36,291 bases of DNA from a virus, in the IMG/VR virus record IMGVR_UViG_3300032087_005412, positions 1 to 36,291 of that record; one strand, written 5' to 3'. A program made the position numbers and the translations under genes. The notes beneath the pieces were generated by a model. It worked only from the letters and a program-made list of their open reading frames with translations, did not search any database and was not told the DNA's origin. Of this stretch, positions 922 through 28,160 are shown one piece after another; within the stretch, counting starts at the first letter, position 1; every line of letters begins with the position of its first letter.

Positions 922-3900
922 TTATTTATCTTCCAATTTTTGCTCAAGAATTTCGACTTTATTGGAAAGTTCCTTGATTGCCTCTATAAGAAGTGGAACA
1001 AGTTTGTCATATTGTACTGTTTTATATTTATTATCAATAGGTGCAGGACAAACGACTTCAGGAAGAACTTTTTCAACCTCTTGAGCAGAAACGCCTGCAT
1101 ATGTAATTTCTGTATCAAAACCAAGTTTTCTGGCAGTTTCATTAAATTTGTAGGTAAATCCATTCAGTGATAAAGTCTTATCAAGAGCACTGGTGAGAGG
1201 TTGAATATCAGTTTTCAATCTTATATCAGAGGCAAAGGCAGTAATGTCACCTGCAACTGAAAGATTGTTTGTTGATGGATTATAGTAAATTCCAGCATCT
1301 GTATAAAGAGATTCCGCAGCACTATTAGTGTTGTTATTGGCAACAAATGTCAAATAATTAGTAGAGTTGGTCCCTAGTGCTTTAGTTTTAATCTTATCAG
1401 CACTATCAGCATCAGTAGCAGTATCGGCATTACCCGTTAGATCACCCTCAACATTACCCGTTAAGTCGCCAGAAAAAGTAGCAGTGATAGTTCCAGCAGA
1501 GAATCCACCATTAGAATCACGAGCAACTATTGTTCCTCCAGTATTTTCAGAAGTTGCGTTAGAAGTTACCGTAAATGTTGTGGCACTAGAGTTATTATAA
1601 GTTGCTGAACCAGATAAACCAGTACCAGAAACACCCAAGGTCAAATTATTTTCTAGAGATCCACTAAATGTCGTTGCAGTTGCAATACCAGTAATAGTTA
1701 CACCAGTATTGGTAGTTTCAAATTTCTTGGCATTAATATAATAAAGATCGACAGAACCATCGTGAGTGATAACTATTCCTTCTTCGTTGTCATGAGGTCT
1801 GATGTAAATATTACCTCCAACATCAGCAGCAACATTATTGCGGATGAAAAGATGCCCAGTATCATTATCAATGAAACTGTTAGTTCCGTTATGATACAAA
1901 GCTAAATCATCACCATCACCAAAGTGTAATTTATCATTATCTAAAAGATGAACCTTATCAGTGAAAGTAGAGACTCCAGTGGCATAAACACCACCATTAA
2001 TCGTGACACCGTATCCAGTTGTAGAGAGTCTTAGATCATTATCATAATAAAGATCGACAGAACCTCCTGTATTAAATCCTGCCATCTTACCATTATCCCA
2101 AGATCCCTGACTTATTATTCTAATGGCAGAGTTCTCTCCTCCTGTCGTATCAAGATATAATAGACCATCCCCCCGATCACTAATCCAACTACTAGTACCA
2201 TCATGATAAATCCGTAAGTCACCATCATCACCAGCAGCACCACCAAAGTGTAATTCATCACTATCTAAAAGATGAACATTATTAGTGAAAGTAGAGACTC
2301 CAGTGGCATAAACACCACCATTAATCGTGACACCGTATCCAGTTGTATAGAGTCTTAGACCATCATTATTATTGGCATCTCCAGTTCCTATCGGATCATT
2401 AAGATAATAAAGTTCAACTGATCCCTTTCCTCCAGGGTTATTGCCAGCACTAGGTGTGTTCGTCCACTTAGGATTTAGTGCTCTGATAAGATTCTGCCCA
2501 TCAGTTCCCTCTACAACAAATCCTGCATCTGTCTGAACACGAAGTACTCTATTAGTTGATGCAGATTTTATAACTTGTGCTCCATAAGTTTGTGATCCCG
2601 AGTTCCCACCATTGTTATAAGGGGAAGAATAGATTTCTAAAATGTCATCATCATTTGTTCCAAATTCAAGTTTACTCTCATCAGGTAGGAACACACTTTC
2701 ACCGATACTTACATTCTTAGCAATACCAACACCACCTTTAACAATTAGAGCACCTCTTGTTGTGGCATCAGAATTAGTGTCATCAGTAATTCTAAGTTGA
2801 CTATTTAAGGTAGTTTTTCCTTTTACTCTAAGATCGCGAGATAGAGTAACTGGACCATTAAATTGTGATAACACAAAACCAGATGTTCCACCTTCCACAA
2901 GAATTCTTTCACTAACTGTTACTTCATCAAAAGCAACACTCAGTTTGGATGGATCTTCACCAGTAACTGTTGGTTTTGGAATATCATATGAAAGAGTCTC
3001 ACCAGAAGTTGCAGATATTCTAGTATTACCGGTGTAATTATCACCACGATTGTTCATACCAGTATAAACTACGGCACCACCACCTCTTTCCTGTGCCTGA
3101 GAAAGAAATTCTTCTCTGTCAGTAAGTGTTCTTGTCTGAACTTGAGGTAATGCAGTTGAATAGTTTCCTGGACCATATCCAAGATATTCAAATGTATGTG
3201 CAGAGGCACGAAGAATTGCAGGTCTTCTAAATTCAATTGGGACTCTTTTTACCTTTTTAATTAATGAACCACTATCATGAGTCTCTTTTTTTGTGCCATA
3301 ATAACCTCTGGATACTACTGCAGTCGTGTCTGTTACATTACCACTGATTCTAATGATTTCATTATCAATCTGTATTAAATCACCTAATTTTAATCTTTGG
3401 GACAACGTAGAACTAGTATATAAGGATGCAAATACAATTTCAGTATCGCTGCTATTAAAAGAAACAAATTTGAAATATTCACCTGCATAAAATGGCACAA
3501 CTCTTGCACCGTAGTTTTCATTTCCAGAATTAGAAATTCCTTCGTTTGAAGAAAGTCCATGTTTTAAAATATAACCTTCATTGACTGATATGTTACTATT
3601 CGCTTTTACTGTAAATTTAGTTGGACTTATGACAGTGTCTACGATATATTCATTATTAGATACTGTGGCAAGATACTTAGAAACTGTGATTTTATTACCT
3701 TTAACTAATCCATGAGGATTAGAATCACAATCAAATGTGAGTGTTCCTGCAACATTTGTCTCAGTACTTGTCGTAAATCCTGTAGCACCAGAACTGGGAA
3801 GTGAAATGGAAGGTCCAGTTATAAATGCATACTGGGTATTATCTGGAACTTGTTCAGTTGAAAATCGGTCGAAAGTAATTGTTTTTCTACCAATAGAAGA

Positions 3901-6900
3901 AATTCTTTGGTATATGTCTGGTGTTTGTCCTCCACCAGTAATTTGCAGAACGGCACCTACATAAGATTCGACATCTACATTCTTATTAATTGTGATCTTA
4001 GCATTGCTACCACCACTAATGATATTATTATCAAAAAATAGATCATGTTCATCATTAGTATAAGTAAGACTTGAATATCCAGAACCTCCTGACTGAATTT
4101 TTACCGCTGTAACTTCATTACCACTAACTTGTACTTGACATGTAGCACCATTCCATCTAGAAACTTCAAAGCTAGAATTTCCTGATAAAAGTCTTACATT
4201 ATAATAATTGCCGTCAGTATAACCACTTCCACCGGTTATTGTACCAGGAGAACAAAGACCATCTAGATTATGATTTTTCTCTAATGTAATTGTACCCGAA
4301 GAGTCGGTTGTAGTTACTGAACTAATTTTATATCCAACTCCAAAATCTTGACAGAAGATATCTGCAGTTTCTCTTGTTATACTTTTCTTTAAATCATTTG
4401 TTACCACATCACCAATTGGTGATAATTTTGCATGTGTTGATGCCGAAAGAGGATTTGTATCAAGATTATCCCTGTCAAGTTGTGGATATAAATCCACAGG
4501 ATTTTGAGTAAATTCAACATCTGTAAATGTATTAGAAATCGCATTTGATGCATTCAACACATATAGATGATAAACTCCATCAGACTCATCTTCAATGTAT
4601 TCTGAAATTACTTCCGTTCTATAAATGTATAAATTTGACTTCAGATTATTTCTAGTGACTCTCGGAAGATTTGTATCTCTTGTGTTTACTGAATTTTGGA
4701 AATTTCCTGGTTCATGAACAAGACCTGCAATGTCTGTTGACGACGTTTTGAATGCATATTCTAGGTTATCTGTATTTGATATGTCTGTAACAACAAAAGA
4801 ACCATTGAATCCTAAATTAAACTCTCCCGTGCTTGTTCCATTAGCACCATCATCTTGCACTTTCTCAACAATTACAATATCACCTACCTTCAATCCATGT
4901 GGTCTTTCAGTTAAATATGTAAATGTTGTTCCGGATAAAGAAGCATCTCTAATGATTTTTGGATTACGATTATACTTCGTATTTTGTAAAGATAATGATG
5001 TAATAGTATCAAAATTATCATAAATGTTGGCACTTGCCGACTTCCTATCTCTTGATTCTTCTGGAAAAGTAGAACTTGATTCTTGAATTATAAATCCTAC
5101 TTCCGGATTTTTTGCATTTAGCGACTCTTTTGGAATAACGACTCTTAATTTATATAATTTTTCATCTAGTGACCTTGAGTCTGTAATTCTTTTAATATAC
5201 GATAAATCACTAGATTTGAAATATTTGGTATCATCATCTTCTTCCGAATCAAATCCTACACCTGTATCTAAAAATGAACTATAGATATCATTTGCAGTAG
5301 AGTCAACAGTAATATACCATTGCCCTTCAGCAACATCCCATTGTATCGGAGATGCAACCTCTCCAGATTCTTTTTCAGACAATCTACTAATAATAGTTAA
5401 ATCATTAACAATTCCACCAAAAGTTTTAATTCCTTCACCCAATCTTGCAGAAGTTTCCGATGCAGCAAGTTTTATATATGATTCAGACTGAAGTCCATCT
5501 GGATTGTCAGTTGCATTGTATACATCATTCAAATCAGTTTCAGTTGCTGAATTATTTGTTCTAGTAATTGCATAATATACACGATGCTCAATAAGATTTT
5601 CTGGATAATTTCCAGATTTACTAGTTACAACAACTTTCTCTCCAGTTTGAAGTTTGTGAGTACCAATAAAAAAATGATGCTGAGGAATCGAACTTGAGTT
5701 GCCAAATTGTGTAACTAAATATTCTTTTATATTTGAAGTTTCGGCATTCCCGTTACTTGTACTCATTCTAATTTTGGCACTATATTCAGTTCCTAGATGA
5801 GTCAAATATAATTTATCACCCGCTCTTGCACCAATTCTAAATCCTTGTGTAAGTGCAAGTGGCTCTGCAGTTTTTGATGTAAATCCAAAAAGATAAAGTC
5901 TTTCATCATTTGCAACATTTCTTGTCTTTTCGACATCAAGTGATAACCATTCAATATTTTCTTCAATGGTATCGTCAACTGCTCTTGGGGGAATAATTCC
6001 AGTTACGTAAGAATGATCATCTTTTTCAAAAACATCACTTCTAAATCCTTCAGATTTTAATGCAAATTGACCGAAGTTTGAGTTTGAATTAGTAATTGAT
6101 GCGTCTGCACCAGTATTCATATCAAAATGAAATGCAAATCCAATAGCAAATACAGATACAACCTGAATAAATGCACTATTAGATACTTTAATATGACTAG
6201 ATTCCCAACCAGGTCTATAATTTGCTCCTGGATCTAAATGGTAAACCTTATCACTATTTTGTGACCCAGAACTTGATTCTCTTGGAAGGTCTTCTGCCGA
6301 TTTTCTTTCATATTCAACTTTATCATAGATTCTACTCGTTCGATTATATTTTACAAAAGCTCTATCATCTCTTTGAAGTGATACTGCCGTAAACTGAGCA
6401 ACGACCATTGAACGGAATCCATCTGCTTTAGATCCATCCGCGTGCATTCCATTCATTCCCCAAACAGATCTTAAAGAAATGTTGAATATGTATGGAGATG
6501 CTCCATTTACAGTATCGGTTTCAACGGTTACAGTCGCATTATCCGTTTGTGGACTTGCATCTAAATTGATCGGAATTGTCTCTAAAAGATAAGTAAACTG
6601 TGTCGGACTAACAATATCTTGAACAAATGTAGACACATTGTAATCGGCAACCAAAACATTTTTAATAATGATTGGTGTTCCTACATTAAGATTATGTTCT
6701 GTTGAAGTAGTTACTGTTACTGTTCTGTTTGCTGTAGTCCCATCTCCAGATATGATGTTAGAAATGTTAATAGGATCAGAAGCAAATGCTCCAACAATTT
6801 CCCATTCCGGACTTCTTTTTGAGAACGATAGTGTATTTTGTGGGAATTGATCACTATTTTCAATTTTTCTTATATTGTTATATGCATTACCAACCTTATA

Positions 6901-20247: not shown

Positions 20248-21566
20248 TTCTTTTTCGTACCAAAACTATCTCTAATAAGTTTTAATTTAGTATATGAATT
20301 CAATGTATCATAATGATGGCATAATTCCTTTATCATATATAGTCCACTTGTGGCGGGATCATATTCATTTTCTTCAGATGGACTTGATCTTGGAAATTCG
20401 CACTCAATCAAATCTCCAGCATTTAAATTACTATTTAAAGGTATTGTCATAGATATTGTCTGAGTTAGCATTGTATTATATCTCATTAGTGCTTGAGACT
20501 GATATTTACTCTGGTCAGAATTTTCTGATGTTGTCACTCCTTTTTCCATAGTACCGATATCTAAGATGCTAGTAATAATTCTTGAAGGATAATCTCCCAA
20601 AGTTTTATCGGATCCTTCACTCATCTTTGGCAACTCAAGTTCTTGACCTAAATTTTCTGTGTTTTTGAGATAATCGGATGATTTAAATACTCCTTGCTGC
20701 AAAGAACTAAATGAAAAATCTAATGGATTAAAATATATTCTTCTAGAAGCATATGTTCCCATTCTCAACTTAACAAGAAGATCAGAATTTCTATCAATAT
20801 AATAATCTAAAATTCTAAAATTATTATTTCTTTTATTTCCATCAGAATTGTAAGTTTCATTTACTTCAGTATATTTGTACAATGCTTTTGCATCTTGCTT
20901 ATTTAATTCATCAACTGATCTAAACTGAAATCCATTTTTAGTTTGATAAAATAAAAATCCCGCTGTTCCATCTTTTGAAATTGAAGGAACACCTTTTGAT
21001 GCTAAAGATGTTAATACTGTAAAAGGTTTTTTCATATTACCGATAAAACCATAATTATTTGATGTTTTATCAATGGTTCCAATTTTATTTGTTTGTATAA
21101 TTTCTGTAAGAATACTTTTTACATGATCAGAAATACTTTTTGCCTTTGGATATTTCTTTACAACTCTAGTTACTTCATTAGTAATCGCCTCTCTTGAAAC
21201 TAATTGTAATGTAAATGATTCTCCATCTTGTGTTTTTTCGACATTACTTATAGAAGAAACATAAAAGTAATCCTCAACTCTAGATGCAAAATCTAGGTCT
21301 ATATTTGAATCAGTATTTGCCTTAATTCTTAGTGATAATCTTTCGCCACCTCTTAAAGGCAAACCATTATAGATGCTTTGCAGAACGCCATCCTTTTCAA
21401 TAGTTTCTGCGGTGTTATTTACCTTCAATTTTGCAGTAATTACTGGAGAAAAAATATCTTCAAAATATTGAAAAATTAATGCTCCACCTTTTAAATCTAC
21501 AGACCTAAGTTGATCATTAGATTCTATAATTAACTCATCATATAATGACTTATTAGTTGCATCCAT
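20244..21566 (-). CDS. 27: Baseplate hub protein, gp27-like
   Basis: A 440-aa protein without signal or membrane segments. Its beginning (LYDELIIESNDQLRSVDLKG, FQYFEDIFSPVITAKLKV) and end (NLNAGDLIECEFPR, then SGLYMIKELCHHYDTLNSYT) fit the hub-ring fold of T4 gp27 and other tail D-type proteins. In those, a late SPG.KI segment is followed by a strand that returns as FYVDEVIHEL. The middle holds VEDYFYVSSISNVEK and FTLQLVSREAITNEV, a common phrase in this family. The start overlaps the stop of the tape-measure/lysin gene (TAATG) and the end overlaps gp5 (ATGA), matching the gp27-gp5 partnership. Homology is inferred by design and position; sequence identity to T4 is low. Confidence 0.72.
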   Translation of the reverse strand: MDATNKSLYDELIIESNDQLRSVDLKGGALIFQYFEDIFSPVITAKLKVNNTAETIEKDGVLQSIYNGLPLRGGERLSLRIKANTDSNIDLDFASRVEDYFYVSSISNVEKTQDGESFTLQLVSREAITNEVTRVVKKYPKAKSISDHVKSILTEIIQTNKIGTIDKTSNNYGFIGNMKKPFTVLTSLASKGVPSISKDGTAGFLFYQTKNGFQFRSVDELNKQDAKALYKYTEVNETYNSDGNKRNNNFRILDYYIDRNSDLLVKLRMGTYASRRIYFNPLDFSFSSLQQGVFKSSDYLKNTENLGQELELPKMSEGSDKTLGDYPSRIITSILDIGTMEKGVTTSENSDQSKYQSQALMRYNTMLTQTISMTIPLNSNLNAGDLIECEFPRSSPSEENEYDPATSGLYMIKELCHHYDTLNSYTKLKLIRDSFGTKKK

Positions 21567-23548
21567 TATACGTAACTAAGTTCTAGTAGAATTTTTTGTT
21601 TAATAACACTATTTAACATAGCAACATCACCCGAATAACTGGTGGAGTTATCTGGAGAACTTCCTTGTGATGGTTGAGGCAATTGAGGTTGAGACTGAGA
21701 ATTGTTTACAACAACTGTTTGACCTTTTCGTTCTTCTGTTACAGATGCAATTTTATTTGCTTCAGTATTTTGATTTGAAGAGGATAATATAGATGGTGCA
21801 ACAGATCTGGCGTCTTTTAAATAACCTTCATATTCTTGTCCACCATATACACTCCATGCACCAAACCCTTGTTTGTCATATACTATTTTCGCTGCCTTTG
21901 CGTTCGTTATAGGATCATAAAGTTTATCAACACTATTAATCCCAAACCAACCAAGTCTTTCTTGTCTATAAGGACCAGTCATATTGATTTGCCACAATCC
22001 ATATGATGTCTCTCCGCTTTGCTTATATAATCCAGATTTAATTGTATCATTTCTAGGATCACCACCAGATTCTGCCATAGCAATTGCTGCCATCTTGATC
22101 GCTTGATCATCATTAAATCCTACAGATTTTGATAACTGCATTAGTTGTGCTAAGTTATATCTTCCTGAAGATGGTAAAACTGGAGTTTGTGGTTTCGCAG
22201 ATGTTTGAGGATCTGTTATTCCCAGATTTTCTTGCGTTCTTCTCCACCATTCATTCAATACATCAGGTATTGATGGACCTGACGGTTGCGATTGTGGTTG
22301 TGGCGGATCTGGTTCAGACTCTGTTTTAGTTGCTTTTACATTACCACCCTTTACAATCAGTCCAGCGTCAACTAATCCCATAGGATCCATTGTTCCAGAT
22401 ACACTAGCAGATGCAGGATTATATCCTGTTGCATGATCTAGGTGTAAATGTGGTCCAGTAGATAGACCAGTACTTCCACTAAAACCTACAACTTTTGCAT
22501 TACCATCAGATCCCGTACCTGCACCAACTTTATCACCTTTCTTAACACTAATTGACTTCATATGCGCCAATTTAACAAAGGTTCCATCTTCCAATTGAAT
22601 TACAACAAAATTGCCATAACCACCATTTGTTCCATCAGGATCTCTAGAATCTCCCATTATTCCAACATCAACAACTGTTCCGTTAGAAACTAAAGTTATT
22701 GGTGTTCCTTCAGGTAATGGGAAGTCTTCACCAGTATGTCCTCTTTCTCCACCCTTTCCATGCACTCTAGATTTTCCCCTAGTTCCAAAAGCACCAGGTC
22801 TATATTCACCATAATCCCTATTTGCGGGATCTAATTTTTCTCCACCAGTAGATGTATATGTCGATCCTCCTCCAGGAGATGGAGATCCTCCTCCAGGAGA
22901 TGGTTCTTCTTCTCTTTCTGGTATTGGTTGTCCAGTTACAACTGCAAAAGCATCTTCCAAATCAGTTTTAAGTTTATCAAATGATTCTTTAAGTTCTTCT
23001 GTTGCATTTCTAACTTTCCCCGACTCGTCTAAAAAATCAAATTTAGATGCATTTTCAATAAGACCTTTTAATATATTACCAAAGTCACCAAACACATTAA
23101 ATATTCTGTTTGGCATGTCTTTCAGAACATTATGAACAAAATTAACCCTTTCCAGGAATTCTTCACCTTTCTGAATCCAAGTTGGTAAGTTTTGAATCAA
23201 CCACCCAAGACTAGTCCAACCAATAAATCCCAAAATCCTATCAATAAAAGATCCACCAGCATTTGCCATCACTTTTTGACCTGGAATGAGGTTTCCAGGT
23301 TTTATTGAAGATGCTTCTATCTTAGCTTCATTTGCACCTCTTCTTTTTGCTTCTTCTCTTCTATTTTTAAAAAGTCTAGATCTCTTCGCAAGAGCAGTTT
23401 TTTCCTTTGTACCACCTTTTATGATTCTTGAAATACTATCAACAGAAATCTGAGTAGCACTAGTATCCTTTGCTATCTGCCTGATAGATTCTCTTGCGGT
23501 ATAAATTCCTTCTGTTTGAGGTCTTAGTACTGAGGTTGGAATTGCCAT
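21566..23548 (-). CDS. Tail-associated muralytic protein, M23 peptidase plus SLT transglycosylase
   Basis: A 660-aa protein that should cut peptidoglycan during DNA entry. Residues 255-400 are a LytM/M23 metallopeptidase: H271-x3-D275 (HTGED), H329 and H367-L-H369 (GPHLHLD) are the expected zinc and catalytic residues. Residues 464-580 are a lytic transglycosylase: Glu493 in AMAESGGDP, then SYGLWQINM (515-523) and AAKIVYDKQGFGAW. The N-terminal 150 residues are basic, then hydrophobic (FIGWTSLGWLIQNLPTWIQ), like a tape-measure end. A proline/glycine linker lies at 216-230. The module NEWWRRTQENLGITDPQ (432-448) is shared with the preceding 591-aa gene. It lies between that gene and gp27, so it probably sits inside the tail near the hub. 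Confidence 0.88.
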   Translation of the reverse strand: MAIPTSVLRPQTEGIYTARESIRQIAKDTSATQISVDSISRIIKGGTKEKTALAKRSRLFKNRREEAKRRGANEAKIEASSIKPGNLIPGQKVMANAGGSFIDRILGFIGWTSLGWLIQNLPTWIQKGEEFLERVNFVHNVLKDMPNRIFNVFGDFGNILKGLIENASKFDFLDESGKVRNATEELKESFDKLKTDLEDAFAVVTGQPIPEREEEPSPGGGSPSPGGGSTYTSTGGEKLDPANRDYGEYRPGAFGTRGKSRVHGKGGERGHTGEDFPLPEGTPITLVSNGTVVDVGIMGDSRDPDGTNGGYGNFVVIQLEDGTFVKLAHMKSISVKKGDKVGAGTGSDGNAKVVGFSGSTGLSTGPHLHLDHATGYNPASASVSGTMDPMGLVDAGLIVKGGNVKATKTESEPDPPQPQSQPSGPSIPDVLNEWWRRTQENLGITDPQTSAKPQTPVLPSSGRYNLAQLMQLSKSVGFNDDQAIKMAAIAMAESGGDPRNDTIKSGLYKQSGETSYGLWQINMTGPYRQERLGWFGINSVDKLYDPITNAKAAKIVYDKQGFGAWSVYGGQEYEGYLKDARSVAPSILSSSNQNTEANKIASVTEERKGQTVVVNNSQSQPQLPQPSQGSSPDNSTSYSGDVAMLNSVIKQKILLELSYV

Positions 23549-23549
23549 G

Positions 23550-25325
23550 TTACACTACTACGTTGTATGCATGTAATGAATATAATGTATAAAAATTTTC
23601 TGGATTTGAAGAAGCGATCATAGGAATTTTTGTCATACTCTTATCAGAATCAACATTAATTGGAGAAGGACTTGATGTTTGAGAATTGTTGGTTATAATG
23701 GTTGGTTTGGGATCTGGTAATTTCTGCACAGGTTGTTGTGTTGTTTTTTTAGATTCTGGATTTGCACTAATGATAGGATCTGCATTTATATTTCTCTCTT
23801 CTTTCGCTAAACGTTCAAGTTCATTATTTGTTTGTCCGACTTCTAAATCTTCAGTTGCTGTATCTCCCATATGAACTGGGATTATGGGATCTTGTGCTTC
23901 AGTATTTGTATTTTGTGCTATATTTGTAGAGTTATAATTATTTGAACGACTATTACGTTTTGTATCCATCAGTGCATCTCTTCCTGTTACAGGAGGTGTT
24001 GCAGGTGAACTGCTAGATGTTGTACTAGTAGGAACAACAGGTGTTGCAGGTGAACTGCTAGATGTTGTACTAGTAGGAACAACAGGTGTTTGTGGTTGTG
24101 CTGAGGATTGAGGATCAGATATTCCTAAATTTTCTTGCGTTCTTCTCCACCATTCATTAAAAGTATTAGTTATATCATCCAAAGGTGTTCCAGATGTTGA
24201 TGGAGAAGGTGTGGTATTACCACCAGAATTTTCAGATTCACTGGCATCTGGTATGTTACCATTGGATGTATTTGGTTCTACACCAGTTTCATTATCACTT
24301 CCTTGTCCTTGAATTTCTGGTGATGAATCTCCATTTGCAGGTTTTGATGGTTCCTTAGGTTCTTTCTCACCTTCAGATTTATCCTTTTCATCAATAACAC
24401 CCTTACCAATCAAATCAAGTAATTGCTCTGCATTGTATATTAGTCCTGCTAACCTAGCAATTCTTCCCATGGGAGTTAGAGAAACTGCACCAAGTATTGC
24501 TTCAGTATAATTTCCTTCCATTGCTTCAAGACCAACACCAAGAGCAGTCAATACACTTCCAATAAATCCTGGAGCACCAGGTGTTTTTGGAGGTTTACCA
24601 GGGAGATTTTTAGCCGCAGAAGCACCTTGAAATAGTGACTTCAATCCCTGAAATGGTTTTCTAATTAATAGATCAAGAACAAACTTAGAAAGTGATCCTA
24701 TACTCCTAACAATATTTTGTATTCCACCATTAAGAAGAAGTAGGACATTAGTAGCATTTCTAACACCCGTTAGAATTGAATTCTTAATCTGTTGTACTAA
24801 ATCAACATTACCTTTTCCTCTTGCTTCAATTAATTCACCATACTTATTCATTAACCATCCACTGAATAAGTATAGTAACGATTGCGCTATCCTATCAAAT
24901 AAATTTGTAGTTCTTCTTGCAACGGGAGCAGATGCAAGAATAAATGCCCGATTTATTTTACTTTCTACTACTTTCTCATCACCTGCTCTTACACCTTGCT
25001 CAGATAATCTTCTTTCCCGTTCTTGTTCTGCTAATAAAATTCTCTGATCATTTGAAATATCATTCTGCAATAATACGGAAATATTTTGCAATCCAGAATT
25101 TAGTACTGCAATATTCTGCCGTATTTCATTGAGACCTGTTTGAAGACCTAATAAATTTTGTTGGTTTTGTTGTGTTAGTTGCAACGTTTGCACGTCCATC
25201 ACAGTCGGTTGTGGAGGTGCAATAGGTTGAATAGGGGTACTAGCAGCACCAGAAACACCAGAAAATGATTGCCTAGATTCTGCTGATAGTGGAGATCTTG
25301 TTACTGGTGTTACGTTAGATGCCAT
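23550..25325 (-). CDS. Tape-measure-like tail protein (591 aa)
   Basis: The length is almost that of the T4 tape measure gp29 (590 aa), and the gene directly follows the gp26/frameshift chaperone pair, where tape-measure genes lie in many tailed phages. Residues 45-130 are Gln-rich coiled coil (LQLTQQNQQNLLGLQTGLNE). Hydrophobic helices follow at 141-165 (NLFDRIAQSLLYLFSGWL), 195-220 and 253-310. The C-terminal half is low-complexity Ser/Thr/Pro/Asn with an exact 15-residue duplication. EWWRRTQENLGISDPQ (391-406) recurs in the muralytic gene downstream. Its start overlaps the small chaperone-like ORF by 11 bases. Tape-measure function is inferred; clear gp29 homology is not visible. Confidence 0.62.
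   Translation of the reverse strand: MASNVTPVTRSPLSAESRQSFSGVSGAASTPIQPIAPPQPTVMDVQTLQLTQQNQQNLLGLQTGLNEIRQNIAVLNSGLQNISVLLQNDISNDQRILLAEQERERRLSEQGVRAGDEKVVESKINRAFILASAPVARRTTNLFDRIAQSLLYLFSGWLMNKYGELIEARGKGNVDLVQQIKNSILTGVRNATNVLLLLNGGIQNIVRSIGSLSKFVLDLLIRKPFQGLKSLFQGASAAKNLPGKPPKTPGAPGFIGSVLTALGVGLEAMEGNYTEAILGAVSLTPMGRIARLAGLIYNAEQLLDLIGKGVIDEKDKSEGEKEPKEPSKPANGDSSPEIQGQGSDNETGVEPNTSNGNIPDASESENSGGNTTPSPSTSGTPLDDITNTFNEWWRRTQENLGISDPQSSAQPQTPVVPTSTTSSSSPATPVVPTSTTSSSSPATPPVTGRDALMDTKRNSRSNNYNSTNIAQNTNTEAQDPIIPVHMGDTATEDLEVGQTNNELERLAKEERNINADPIISANPESKKTTQQPVQKLPDPKPTIITNNSQTSSPSPINVDSDKSMTKIPMIASSNPENFYTLYSLHAYNVVV
23995..24084 (-). repeat. Exact 45-bp tandem duplication in tape-measure-like gene
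   Basis: Two identical 45-base units, 23995-24039 and 24040-24084, encode PVVPTSTTSSSSPAT twice in the low-complexity linker that follows the EWWRRTQ module. Confidence 0.95.
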
Positions 25326-25488
25326 TACCGTTCTTTAAATTTTCTTCCTCAATGTATTGTTGGAGAAGAGTAACGTAAACTTCTCTTTCCCAAGGTATCA
25401 TATTTTCTAATTCTGTTAATGAATATTTATGATGCTGCATCAAGGCAAATGTCATCTTATAATATGACGCAAGACTTTCATGCGTCAT
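25315..25488 (-). CDS. Small tail assembly protein, gp51-like position; frameshift partner of gp26
   Basis: A 57-aa frame from ATG (25488) to TAA (25315) reads MTHESLASYYKMTFALMQHH, then KYSLTELENMIPWEREVYVT and LLQQYIEEENLKNGNGI. The pattern (helix, then ELE.M..WER...LLQ..EEE) resembles the T part of lambda-type G/GT tail chaperones. The frame continues upstream without a stop through RLA to a slippery T-TTT-TTC in gp26, so it can be made as a -1 fusion (298 aa). No ribosome site precedes its own ATG, and that ATG lies inside a hairpin stem. It overlaps the tape-measure-like gene by 11 bases. T4 gp51 lies in this position but is longer. Confidence 0.75.
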   Translation of the reverse strand: MTHESLASYYKMTFALMQHHKYSLTELENMIPWEREVYVTLLQQYIEEENLKNGNGI

Positions 25489-25503
25489 AGCTAGGCGAAA
25501 AAA
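25463..25503 (-). promoter_or_regulatory. Programmed -1 frameshift signal (slippery heptamer plus hairpin)
   Basis: The heptamer T-TTT-TTC (25503-25497) is in phase with gp26, one codon before its final Ala and TAG. Seven bases later a perfect 8-bp stem, TATGACGC (25489-25482) with GCGTCATA (25470-25463), encloses an 11-base loop. A one-base slip enters CGC CTA GCT ATG, the frame of the downstream small ORF. Site type, spacer length and stem are those of classical bacterial -1 frameshift elements. Confidence 0.8.
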
Positions 25504-26210
25504 GATGAAAGTCCCTCCATTACTATCTCACTTTCAACACCAGTGTTTGGATTTTTCACTGGAATTACATGACGAAGTTTTGGCATGGTCTCAAAGAATT
25601 TTTCAATCTCTTTAAATTGTTTAGAACTAAGTTGCTCAACAAATTCTTTAAGTTCTTTTTTAGTACAATCTTTAGAAGACCAAGACTCTTCTTCAGTGTA
25701 AATTTGATCAATACAAGAACAAATAATATCAAATGTATCATCAACTGATACAGGATCATTTTGATTAAAATTGTTTTTTATAAACTCGCCAACTGAAGGA
25801 TATTTCATCCTTACTGTCAATTCATCGTCCAACTTAATGTCTCTATTGTGTCCTTCATTTACTTGAACACGAATATCATCTAAATTGATACTCATAGGGA
25901 CTTGAGTTTTTCCATCATCAGGACAAGTGATCAAAACATCTGCAGTTTCCCCTACAGACTTTCCTCTAATATTAAGAAAAAGATATTCAATATCAAAAGT
26001 GGCAAGTTGTTCTACCTTGATGCCTCTTGTAATGATGCAATTTGAGATTACATCTTTAACTGCATTAGAAATTTGCTTTGGATCTTCACTTTCCATTGCA
26101 ATAATTAAGATTTTTTCTTCTTTTACAAGAAAAGGTCTGTACTTAATCTTCTTTTTTAATGATGGAATTTCCAACTCATATGTGGGAGTAGATACTTTCG
26201 GTAAAGGCAT
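25491..26210 (-). CDS. 26: Baseplate hub subunit gp26-like / tail assembly chaperone
   Basis: The 239-aa protein starts MPLPKVSTPTYELEIPSLKK and has KYRPFLVKEEKILIIAMESE (about 23-42), the recognisable core of the T4 gp26 baseplate family. It has helical and beta parts, no signal peptide, and a helical C-terminus (CTKKELKEFVEQLSSKQFKE). In T4, gp26 is needed to assemble the hub. Its place before a small overlapping ORF and a tape-measure-like gene is that of a G-type chaperone. The slippery site at its end allows about 238 residues to be fused to the next ORF. A CTAAATA motif lies 20 bases before the ATG and no clear Shine-Dalgarno is present. Confidence 0.82.
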   Translation of the reverse strand: MPLPKVSTPTYELEIPSLKKKIKYRPFLVKEEKILIIAMESEDPKQISNAVKDVISNCIITRGIKVEQLATFDIEYLFLNIRGKSVGETADVLITCPDDGKTQVPMSINLDDIRVQVNEGHNRDIKLDDELTVRMKYPSVGEFIKNNFNQNDPVSVDDTFDIICSCIDQIYTEEESWSSKDCTKKELKEFVEQLSSKQFKEIEKFFETMPKLRHVIPVKNPNTGVESEIVMEGLSSFFA

Positions 26211-26237: not shown

Positions 26238-26999
26238 TTATGCTATTGTAGCATTTGCAGCACTTAGAACTGTTTGTCCTGTAGGATCAACCACTGCATC
26301 CAATGCATTTTGATTTGATACAAGAGGTCTATTCAAAAGTCCATATCGAGTGTCATAATTCTTAGTTGGTTCATTATTTTCATTATCTCCTTTATAGAGA
26401 TTATGACTAGATGCTCTTCCAGTAATATAGCGATCATACTCAAAAGTTGCTGCAACTTTAAGTACATCAGATCCAGCATAATTTACAGGAATTGATGCTA
26501 TTGATTGTGGGAACATTCCTCTGAATGTATATTCAATATCTCTTCTATAATCTCTATCAAATTTTATAATCTTAGTTTCAGTAGATTTGTAATCATCAGG
26601 GTACTGCATTCTGATATAGTAGTCATCATGAAGTTTTCCAATTTGTTTATCAGACCCACTGGAAATAAAATCCATCCAGTGTTCTAATACTTTAATCGTA
26701 TCATACCTATTGTCAACATAAAACTCCATCGTAATGTTATTGTACATTCTGGTATGTGCAATTTTTTCACGAATACCAATCTGTGGAGTCAATTCTGCAG
26801 TTGCATAAGCAGAAGTTGGGAGTGTTGTGGCAAAACACAACAATCCAAAATCATGAACACAATAGTAAGGTGATACGCCTTTTCTAAACAAATAATTTAC
26901 TACTGGACCAGGGACTTGAAATCTGACTTCATAATGTGAAGATTGTGCAAGATTGCCAAATAAAGTCTTTGCGGCATATGGTTGTATTGGAAATGGCAC
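26238..26999 (-). CDS. 54: Baseplate tail-tube initiator, gp54-like
   Basis: A 253-aa protein of the tail-tube fold. It starts with GTG at 26999, because a TAG lies only four codons upstream and no ATG is available. Key segments are NNITMEFYVDNRYDTIKVLE (about 87-106) with the HWMDFI helix, and the closing FRGMFPQSIASIPVNYAGSD, then VLKVAATFEYDRY. This matches the end of T4 gp54/gp19-type proteins (GC.P.S.S...LSYD...TF.V.F.Y). In T4, gp54 polymerises on gp48 to nucleate the inner tube. Here gp48 lies in the divergent operon. A paralogous tube protein (gp19) is the alternative. The gene is first in the minus-strand late tail operon. Confidence 0.65.
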   Translation of the reverse strand: MPFPIQPYAAKTLFGNLAQSSHYEVRFQVPGPVVNYLFRKGVSPYYCVHDFGLLCFATTLPTSAYATAELTPQIGIREKIAHTRMYNNITMEFYVDNRYDTIKVLEHWMDFISSGSDKQIGKLHDDYYIRMQYPDDYKSTETKIIKFDRDYRRDIEYTFRGMFPQSIASIPVNYAGSDVLKVAATFEYDRYITGRASSHNLYKGDNENNEPTKNYDTRYGLLNRPLVSNQNALDAVVDPTGQTVLSAANATIA

Positions 27000-27042: not shown

Positions 27043-27486
27043 ATGGCATACAGAGGAAAATATCAACCATCCTATCCCAAAAAATACAAAGGTGATCCTA
27101 CAAACATCGTTTATAGATCATTATGGGAACGTCGATTCATGGTTTACTGTGATATAAATGAAAATGTTCTTGAATGGGGAAGTGAAGAACTAGCACTTCC
27201 ATACCGTTCACCAATAGACAATAGAATCCATAGATACTTTCCAGACTTTTATATCAAAGTACGCGAAAGCAATGGACAGATTCAAAAGTATATCATTGAA
27301 GTAAAACCAAAGAAGCAAACTATTGAACCCAAAGTTCAGAAGAAAAAAACTAAGGGTTACATTTATGAAGTTAGGGAGTGGGCAAGAAATCAAGCAAAGT
27401 GGAAAGTTGCCCAAGAGTTCTGTGAAGATCGTCAATGGAAGTTTAAAATCATCACCGAAGACGAACTTTTTGTTTATTCTAAATAA
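27043..27486 (+). CDS. 4: Head completion protein gp4
   Basis: At 147 aa it is close to T4 gp4 (150 aa). Residues 1-35 (MAYRGKYQPSYPKKYKGDPT, then IVYRSLWERRFMVYCD) and YFPDFYIKV...KYIIEVKPKKQ (about 66-92) are the family signature. The Asp of PDFY with E-x-K of IEVKPK recalls a restriction-type nuclease core. In T4, gp4 (with gp2 and gp3) finishes heads and tails so that they can join. The ATG lies right after the divergent late promoter, without a visible Shine-Dalgarno. It is the first gene of the plus-strand late operon. Confidence 0.9.
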   Translation: MAYRGKYQPSYPKKYKGDPTNIVYRSLWERRFMVYCDINENVLEWGSEELALPYRSPIDNRIHRYFPDFYIKVRESNGQIQKYIIEVKPKKQTIEPKVQKKKTKGYIYEVREWARNQAKWKVAQEFCEDRQWKFKIITEDELFVYSK

Positions 27487-27509: not shown

Positions 27510-28160
27510 ATGACTAATTATTATACCTATGCTTATTTAAATGAAGATGGTATACCATATTATATTGGAAAAGGTAAAGGAAATAGATTATATGATCATA
27601 GGGGTAAAAATTGCAATCCACCAAAAGATAAAAGTAAAATAATCAAACTAAAACAAAATATAACAGAAGAAGAAGCATTTAAGCATGAAATTTATATGAT
27701 TTATGTGTTTGGTAAGAAATGCGATGGAACTGGTATTTTGATGAATATTGCTGATGGGGGTAATGCTCCCCCTAAAATGTATGGAGATAATAGTCCAACA
27801 AAAAGACCAGAAATTAGAAAAAAAATAGGTGCTGCAAATAAAATTAAATTAAAAGGAAGAAAAGTTTCAGAAGAAACAAAACAAAAATTATCAAATACTT
27901 GGAAAGAAAAATTAAAAAACAACCCAAGGCCAATATCTTACTATCTAGAAAATTTAAAAAAAATGGCAGAAAGAAATAGAACTGATAAAGAAAAGCATAA
28001 AAGACATAGTGAATTTATGAAAAATAAATTTTATGCTGCTAAATCGGTAGAATATAATAATAAAATATATAAGTCTATGACCGAAGCAATAAATCAAACG
28101 GGACTTTCCAGATATTATATTCTTAAACAAGGTGGAAAATTTATCAAAGGTATCAAGTAA
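27510..28160 (+). CDS. GIY-YIG homing endonuclease with NUMOD3-like region
   Basis: The 216-aa protein opens with a GIY-YIG nuclease: YTYAYL (5-10), PYYIGKGKGNR (16-26), Glu60 in HEIYMIYVFG and N79 in MNIADGG. The linker holds a NUMOD3-like stretch at about 92-130 (KRPEIRKKIG, KLKGRKVSEETKQKLS). The end (KIYKSMTEAINQTGLSRYYI) resembles a NUMOD1/helix-turn-helix DNA-binding unit. Such free-standing enzymes copy themselves into related phage genomes. It lies between gp4 and the next structural gene, and its TAA overlaps the next ATG (TAATG). A CTAAATA motif sits eight bases before its ATG. The gene is more Lys/Asn-rich and A-rich than its neighbours, consistent with a mobile insert. Confidence 0.9.
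   Translation: MTNYYTYAYLNEDGIPYYIGKGKGNRLYDHRGKNCNPPKDKSKIIKLKQNITEEEAFKHEIYMIYVFGKKCDGTGILMNIADGGNAPPKMYGDNSPTKRPEIRKKIGAANKIKLKGRKVSEETKQKLSNTWKEKLKNNPRPISYYLENLKKMAERNRTDKEKHKRHSEFMKNKFYAAKSVEYNNKIYKSMTEAINQTGLSRYYILKQGGKFIKGIK

Follow-up and report, generated by a model that had tools for sequence, protein, structure and literature searches.

How the short open reading frame behind gp26 is expressed in cyanophages, as a gene of its own or as an extension of gp26, is the question raised by a locus on the minus strand of the window analyzed here, a 36,291-nt, AT-rich stretch of DNA from an uncultured cyanobacterial virus. We consider it highly probable (∼93%) that this locus is a tail-assembly-chaperone (TAC) cassette in which a −1 programmed frameshift gives rise to a short and a long chaperone. 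The first-pass annotation had proposed such a G/GT layout, and strong support for the frameshift cassette now comes from conservation of the slippery heptamer, from relatives without a start codon in the second frame, from the TAC fold of gp26, and from its position after the tail tube gene.

Organization of the Locus

The features of the locus, together with the evidence used for each, are as follows.

26238..26999, minus strand: tail tube gene, upstream of gp26 (phrog_45 tail tube, E 1.9e-33)
25491..26210, minus strand: gp26, predicted short tail-assembly chaperone (TAC-N, the 'G' analogue), 239 aa (PF12322, phrog_150, predicted fold)
25513..25518, minus strand: Shine-Dalgarno (SD)-like GGAGGG, a candidate 5′ stimulator that lies 9 nt ahead of the slip site (anti-SD pairing)
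25497..25503, minus strand: slippery heptamer T TTT TTC (codons TTT TTC), in phase (conservation, sequence)
25490..25496, minus strand: spacer, 7 nt, GCCTAGC, containing the 0-frame stop TAG at 25493..25491 (sequence)
25463..25489, minus strand: hairpin of 9 bp and a 9-nt loop, a candidate 3′ stimulator (MFE folding, conservation)
25315..25499, minus strand: −1 frame extension, T-like domain, gp51 in the annotation of relatives (phrog_634, E 1.5e-25)
23550..25325, minus strand: 591-aa gene in the tape-measure position, downstream (homologous to the gene at that position in S-SRM01 and P-SSM2)

Profile searches of Pfam and PHROG placed gp26 in PF12322 (E 7.7e-76) and phrog_150 (E 6.7e-82). The 3′ end of the gene (minus strand, 26210..25491) reads ...TCA TCT TTT TTC GCC TAG, such that one codon (GCC) separates the heptamer from the gp26 stop, and the whole signal reads ...ATG GAG GGA CTT TCA TCT TTT TTC GCC TAG C TATGACGCA TGAAAGTCT TGCGTCATA... 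on the same strand. Both the correctly phased T TTT TTC (25503..25497) and the 7-base spacer GCCTAGC (25496..25490) were thus found where the first-pass annotation had described them.

The gene order tube, gp26, gp51 is kept in cyanophages, a pelagiphage, and Sinorhizobium and Aeromonas phages, and Vibrio phages of the Schizotequatrovirus group have the same gene spacing as the window locus. The 591-aa gene was without a Pfam or PHROG family match in profile searches, and comparison with T4 gp29 and with the genes that more distant phages have at this position gave no match either; in a pelagiphage relative, a gene annotated as a putative tape measure lies two genes downstream. Adjoining the 591-aa gene (window 21566-23548, minus strand) is the gene for a 660-aa protein with an M23 peptidase and an SLT/lysozyme-like domain, and the 660- and 591-aa proteins have a related stretch in common. 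Two plus-strand open reading frames were observed on the other side of the locus. One (27043-27486, 147 aa) matches the TnsA-like endonuclease N-terminal domain (PF08722, E 4.5e-26), and relatives carry a T4 gp4-like head closure gene near this position. The other (27510-28160, 216 aa) lies among structural genes and resembles by eye a GIY-YIG endonuclease-like insertion, with no confident Pfam match.

Conservation of the Slippery Heptamer

The window contains 79 in-phase X XXY YYZ heptamers in 11,107 codons. A single heptamer therefore proves little, and the evidence lies in its conservation. A gp26 match was found at 189 loci, a count that includes the window and a few phages duplicated across two collections, and 184 of these carry the heptamer. 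It is present at the gp26 end, as T TTT TTC or T TTT TTT, in 184 of 184 intact loci, a set defined to exclude the T4 clade and an Ackermannviridae-like group. The phages concerned are cyanophages, a pelagiphage, and phages of Sinorhizobium, Stenotrophomonas, Aeromonas, Acidovorax, and Vibrio (Schizotequatrovirus). The five exceptions are T2 (T4 clade), Vibrio phage D495, a contig with a broken gp26 frame, Stenotrophomonas phage IME-SM1, and a contig that ends before the gp26 stop.

At the slip site of IME-SM1 (near 3750) there is one T fewer, so that in the deposited sequence gp26 continues into the T-like domain without a change of frame; its sisters YB07 and Moby have six T at this site. The missing T reflects either a genuine in-frame fusion or an error in sequencing the homopolymer. 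In Vibrio phages D495, K452, 207E48.1 (listed as Ackermannviridae), and K490, CTT TTC or CTT TTT replaces the heptamer and a TAATG overlap is present, and the T-like open reading frame is retained in the −1 frame after gp26. A weaker slip site or reinitiation may be in use in these four phages.

The heptamer encodes Phe-237 and Phe-238 of gp26, both of which are invariant residues, and it could in principle be kept merely through conservation of this Phe-Phe pair, with gp51 dispensable or separately expressed. Codon usage argues strongly against this explanation. Among 143 testable columns in 162 cyanophage gp26 genes, the slip codons TTT and TTC were the sole columns with a single codon, whereas the other invariant or near-invariant Phe columns are a mixture of TTT and TTC, and TTC is the minority Phe codon in these genes (610 versus 1485). 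Moreover, the variable codon before the slip site (TCT, AGT, GCT, GAT, AAT, or GGT) ends in T in all 184 loci. We regard conservation at the protein level as the least probable of the explanations considered. Among complete cyanophage loci, 155 of 156 have the TTT codon beginning 9 nt ahead of the stop.

A homopolymeric slip site would also suit transcriptional slippage, in which RNA polymerase inserts a further U at the T run and the same fusion is made from edited mRNA; judged from the sequence, one extra U gives the same protein. However, the run is just 6 T followed by a C that is invariant in all 162 cyanophage loci, whereas reported bacterial runs are ∼9 A or T long (PMC5009743), and use of TTT, the commoner Phe codon, could have given a longer run. 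Slippage by the polymerase also gives no role to the SD-like and hairpin elements that stand at ribosomal spacing, and we consider it very improbable as the source of the fusion. Slippage of the ribosome in the −1 direction is the reading followed below.

Coding Capacity of the −1 Frame

From the slip site onward, the −1 frame contains no stop until that of the small open reading frame, and a frameshift would join 238 residues of gp26 to 60 residues of the second frame to give a fusion of 298 aa. These findings agree with the lengths of 239 and 298 aa predicted by the first-pass annotation, and with its claim that the frame leads into a 57-aa open reading frame, which runs in the program-made listing from its own ATG (25488..25315, minus strand) and corresponds to the short cyanophage gp51. 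Across 156 cyanophage loci the −1 frame was stop-free in every case, and both other frames were closed. Within the extension, 58% of the differences among these 156 loci fall at the third codon position of the −1 frame, a substitution pattern that is, on sequence grounds, protein-coding.

Termination-reinitiation offers another route to the second frame. Ribosomes would end gp26 at TAG and restart 2 nt on at ATG 25488, producing a free 57-aa gp51. The start codon directly after the stop is found in the window and has the same placement in most close relatives, and database records annotate gp51 as a separate gene; in none of the relatives' records examined were the gp26 and gp51 frames joined. 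By contrast, ATG is missing from the early −1 frame in 47 of 183 loci, and ATG, GTG, and TTG are all missing in 33 of 183, cyanophage sub-groups, pelagiphages, and Aeromonas phages among them. In these 33 loci the fusion is therefore the only plausible product containing the whole domain. The annotated gp51 of syn9 (5771-5914) begins at an internal Met, inside the conserved domain, the first part of which is lost; this start is an annotation artefact. Reinitiation also leaves the invariant heptamer unexplained, and we hold it to be very improbable as the way in which the second frame is expressed, if somewhat less so than transcriptional slippage. It is possible that, beside the frameshift, coupled reinitiation at ATG 25488 gives the free 57-aa protein in addition.

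Elements Flanking the Slip Site

The first-pass annotation had overlooked the SD-like GGAGGG upstream of the heptamer. Within the 300 nt that precede the heptamer, pairing with the anti-SD sequence, averaged over 162 cyanophage loci, peaked at this site. The peak begins 15-17 nt upstream of the heptamer, and GGAGG, GAGG, or AAGG is present there in all 162 loci. At the Glu codon of the site, the preference for GAG was the highest of 27 Glu columns. The Glu-Gly pair encoded here is also conserved as protein (Glu 99%, Gly 100%), which implies that conservation of the SD-like site is only partly at the nucleotide level.

Downstream of the heptamer, the stem arms TATGACGCA and TGCGTCATA (25489..25481 paired with 25471..25463) enclose the loop TGAAAGTCT. 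The hairpin that the first-pass annotation had placed at 25463-25489 is therefore real, although it consists of 9 bp and a 9-nt loop, with one more inner pair than the 8 bp and 11-nt loop originally given. The ATG of the small open reading frame (25488..25486) lies within the 5′ arm, buried in the stem as had been proposed. MFE folding recovers the hairpin, and the hairpin stretch has a value of about −13 kcal/mol. The stability of the 121-nt regional fold was not unusual (z −0.49), and the stem was consequently assessed by conservation instead.

At least seven of the nine pairs are kept in 48 of 51 unique relatives with gp26 identity of at least 74%, with compensatory changes that include G-C/T-A exchanges at pair 7 and C-G/T-A exchanges at pair 6. 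The two sides of pair 7 changed nearly always together, in 3 independent comparisons on supported branches of the tree and 7 on all branches; the covariation events in the stem are too few for significance. Below 74% identity, at least seven pairs were found in only 7 of 50 unique relatives, and the stem was rejected as a family-wide feature. Distant relatives that carry the same heptamer mostly have no hairpin or a different one; any role for it can therefore be no more than clade-specific. The first-pass annotation had looked to conservation of both heptamer and stem among relatives; that of the heptamer is complete in the intact loci, but the stem is kept only in the clade of the window.

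With an SD-like GGAGGG 9 nt upstream of its slip site, the window signal is dnaX-like. It shares with E. coli dnaX (PMC3711429) the upstream SD-like element, a homopolymeric heptamer, and a downstream hairpin. Three features set it apart from dnaX, namely a U UUU UUC heptamer, a −1 product longer than that of the 0 frame, and a hairpin that lacks family-wide conservation. These patterns leave room for a layered signal, in which U UUU UUC and an SD-like GAGG ∼10 nt upstream would be fixed cyanophage-wide, while the 3′ hairpin would be added, replaced, or lost in individual clades and so retune the level of frameshifting per lineage with the chaperone ratio kept. We consider this layered arrangement possible but rather less likely than its absence.

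Fold of gp26 and Relationship with T4 gp51

The AlphaFold2 model of gp26 (pLDDT 87) gave as its top three matches among solved structures the HK97 TAC 2ob9 (Z 8.0), 3fgx (Z 7.8), and YqbN 3klu (Z 7.1), all of which are proteins named as phage TACs (PMC9603447). These matches span the N-terminal 88-95 residues of gp26, and the next matches of the fold were 5ir0 (Z 5.0) and 6vek (Z 4.1). A search of solved structures by sequence returned weak caspase matches of gp26, which are evidently spurious and were set aside.

For comparison with the T4 type, gp26 and gp51 (249 aa) were taken from phage T2. Residues 1-201 of T4-type gp51 match PF12322 (E 4.3e-55), and gp51 aligned with the gp26 profile in hhalign (96.6%, E 5.3e-10). 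In a single comparison, the tail of the protein matched cyanophage gp51 (E 1e-4). The predicted models of gp26 and T4-type gp51 are almost identical in the order of their elements, and gp51 has additional helices at its end. No TAC was present among the PDB matches of the T4 gp51 model, the best of which was an unrelated protein (Z 4.8), so that kinship with gp26 rests on PF12322 and hhalign. As judged from these sequence matches, T4 gp51 is a gp26-like domain followed by a "T" domain, i.e. a stand-alone GT.

Since T4-type gp51 has the whole gp26 domain and then a T-like tail, the predicted fusion product exists there as a gene. As in the cyanophages, gp26 of T2 matches PF12322; unlike in the cyanophages, there are two divergent neighbouring genes and no heptamer, which implies that the short and long forms are made there from duplicated genes. 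The statement in the first-pass annotation that gp26 and gp51 are separate in T4 is accordingly right as to two genes, but gp51 carries a gp26-like domain of its own.

Proposed Mechanism

Under the preferred −1 frameshift reading, most ribosomes would read gp26 to TAG and produce the 239-aa short chaperone (TAC-N, lambda gpG-like). A minority, paused by the upstream SD-like GGAGGG and the downstream hairpin as putative stimulators, would slip by −1 on U UUU UUC and continue through the gp51 frame. The slipped product would be the 298-aa long chaperone (TAC-NC, lambda gpGT-like). By analogy with lambda, the short form may coat the tape-measure protein and the T-like extension may recruit tail-tube subunits, both partners being presumed.

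The lambda G/GT frameshift was described by Xu, Hendrix and Duda 2004 (as cited in PMC5009743). The likeness lies in a short chaperone that has the TAC fold, in its rarer −1 extension, and in a location after the tail tube gene, whereas the window locus differs in its slip site (T TTT TTC), in a larger gp26 that continues C-terminally past the TAC fold, and in belonging to a T4-type tail.

Relation to Earlier Work and Implications

The link between T4-type gp26/gp51 and tail chaperones that the first-pass annotation had drawn holds, but as cited in two later papers (PMC10885494 and PMC12846349) it was already published by Vladimirov, Gautam and Davidson 2022, who identified the TAC genes of T4-like phages. 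On the authority of that study, the PRFect paper states that in some T4-like phages a fused long gene copy accompanies a short one in place of frameshifting (PMC10885494), and the Adele paper mentions that T4-like phages have poly-T slip signals in their TAC-N genes (PMC12846349). Some T4-like records also already label a protein of the gp26/gp51 family as a tape-measure chaperone. From these statements and records, the concept is already known. The present analysis contributes conservation at the codon level in cyanophages, relatives that have no start codon for the second frame, an SD-like element, and a hairpin restricted to one clade.

The assignment of frames leads to a simple prediction that can be tested in host-phage pairs amenable to culture, e.g. 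those of P-SSM2 or S-SRM01. It would also account for the short length reported for cyanophage gp51, only ∼20% of that of other T4-like gp51 proteins (Sullivan et al. 2010, PMC3037559), because the missing N-terminal part would be gp26 itself, supplied by frameshifting, where T4 gene 51 has a second gp26-like domain. In many cyanophage records, gp26 appears under the structural label 'baseplate hub' and gp51 under that of a free-standing 'hub assembly catalyst'; both labels are probably wrong.
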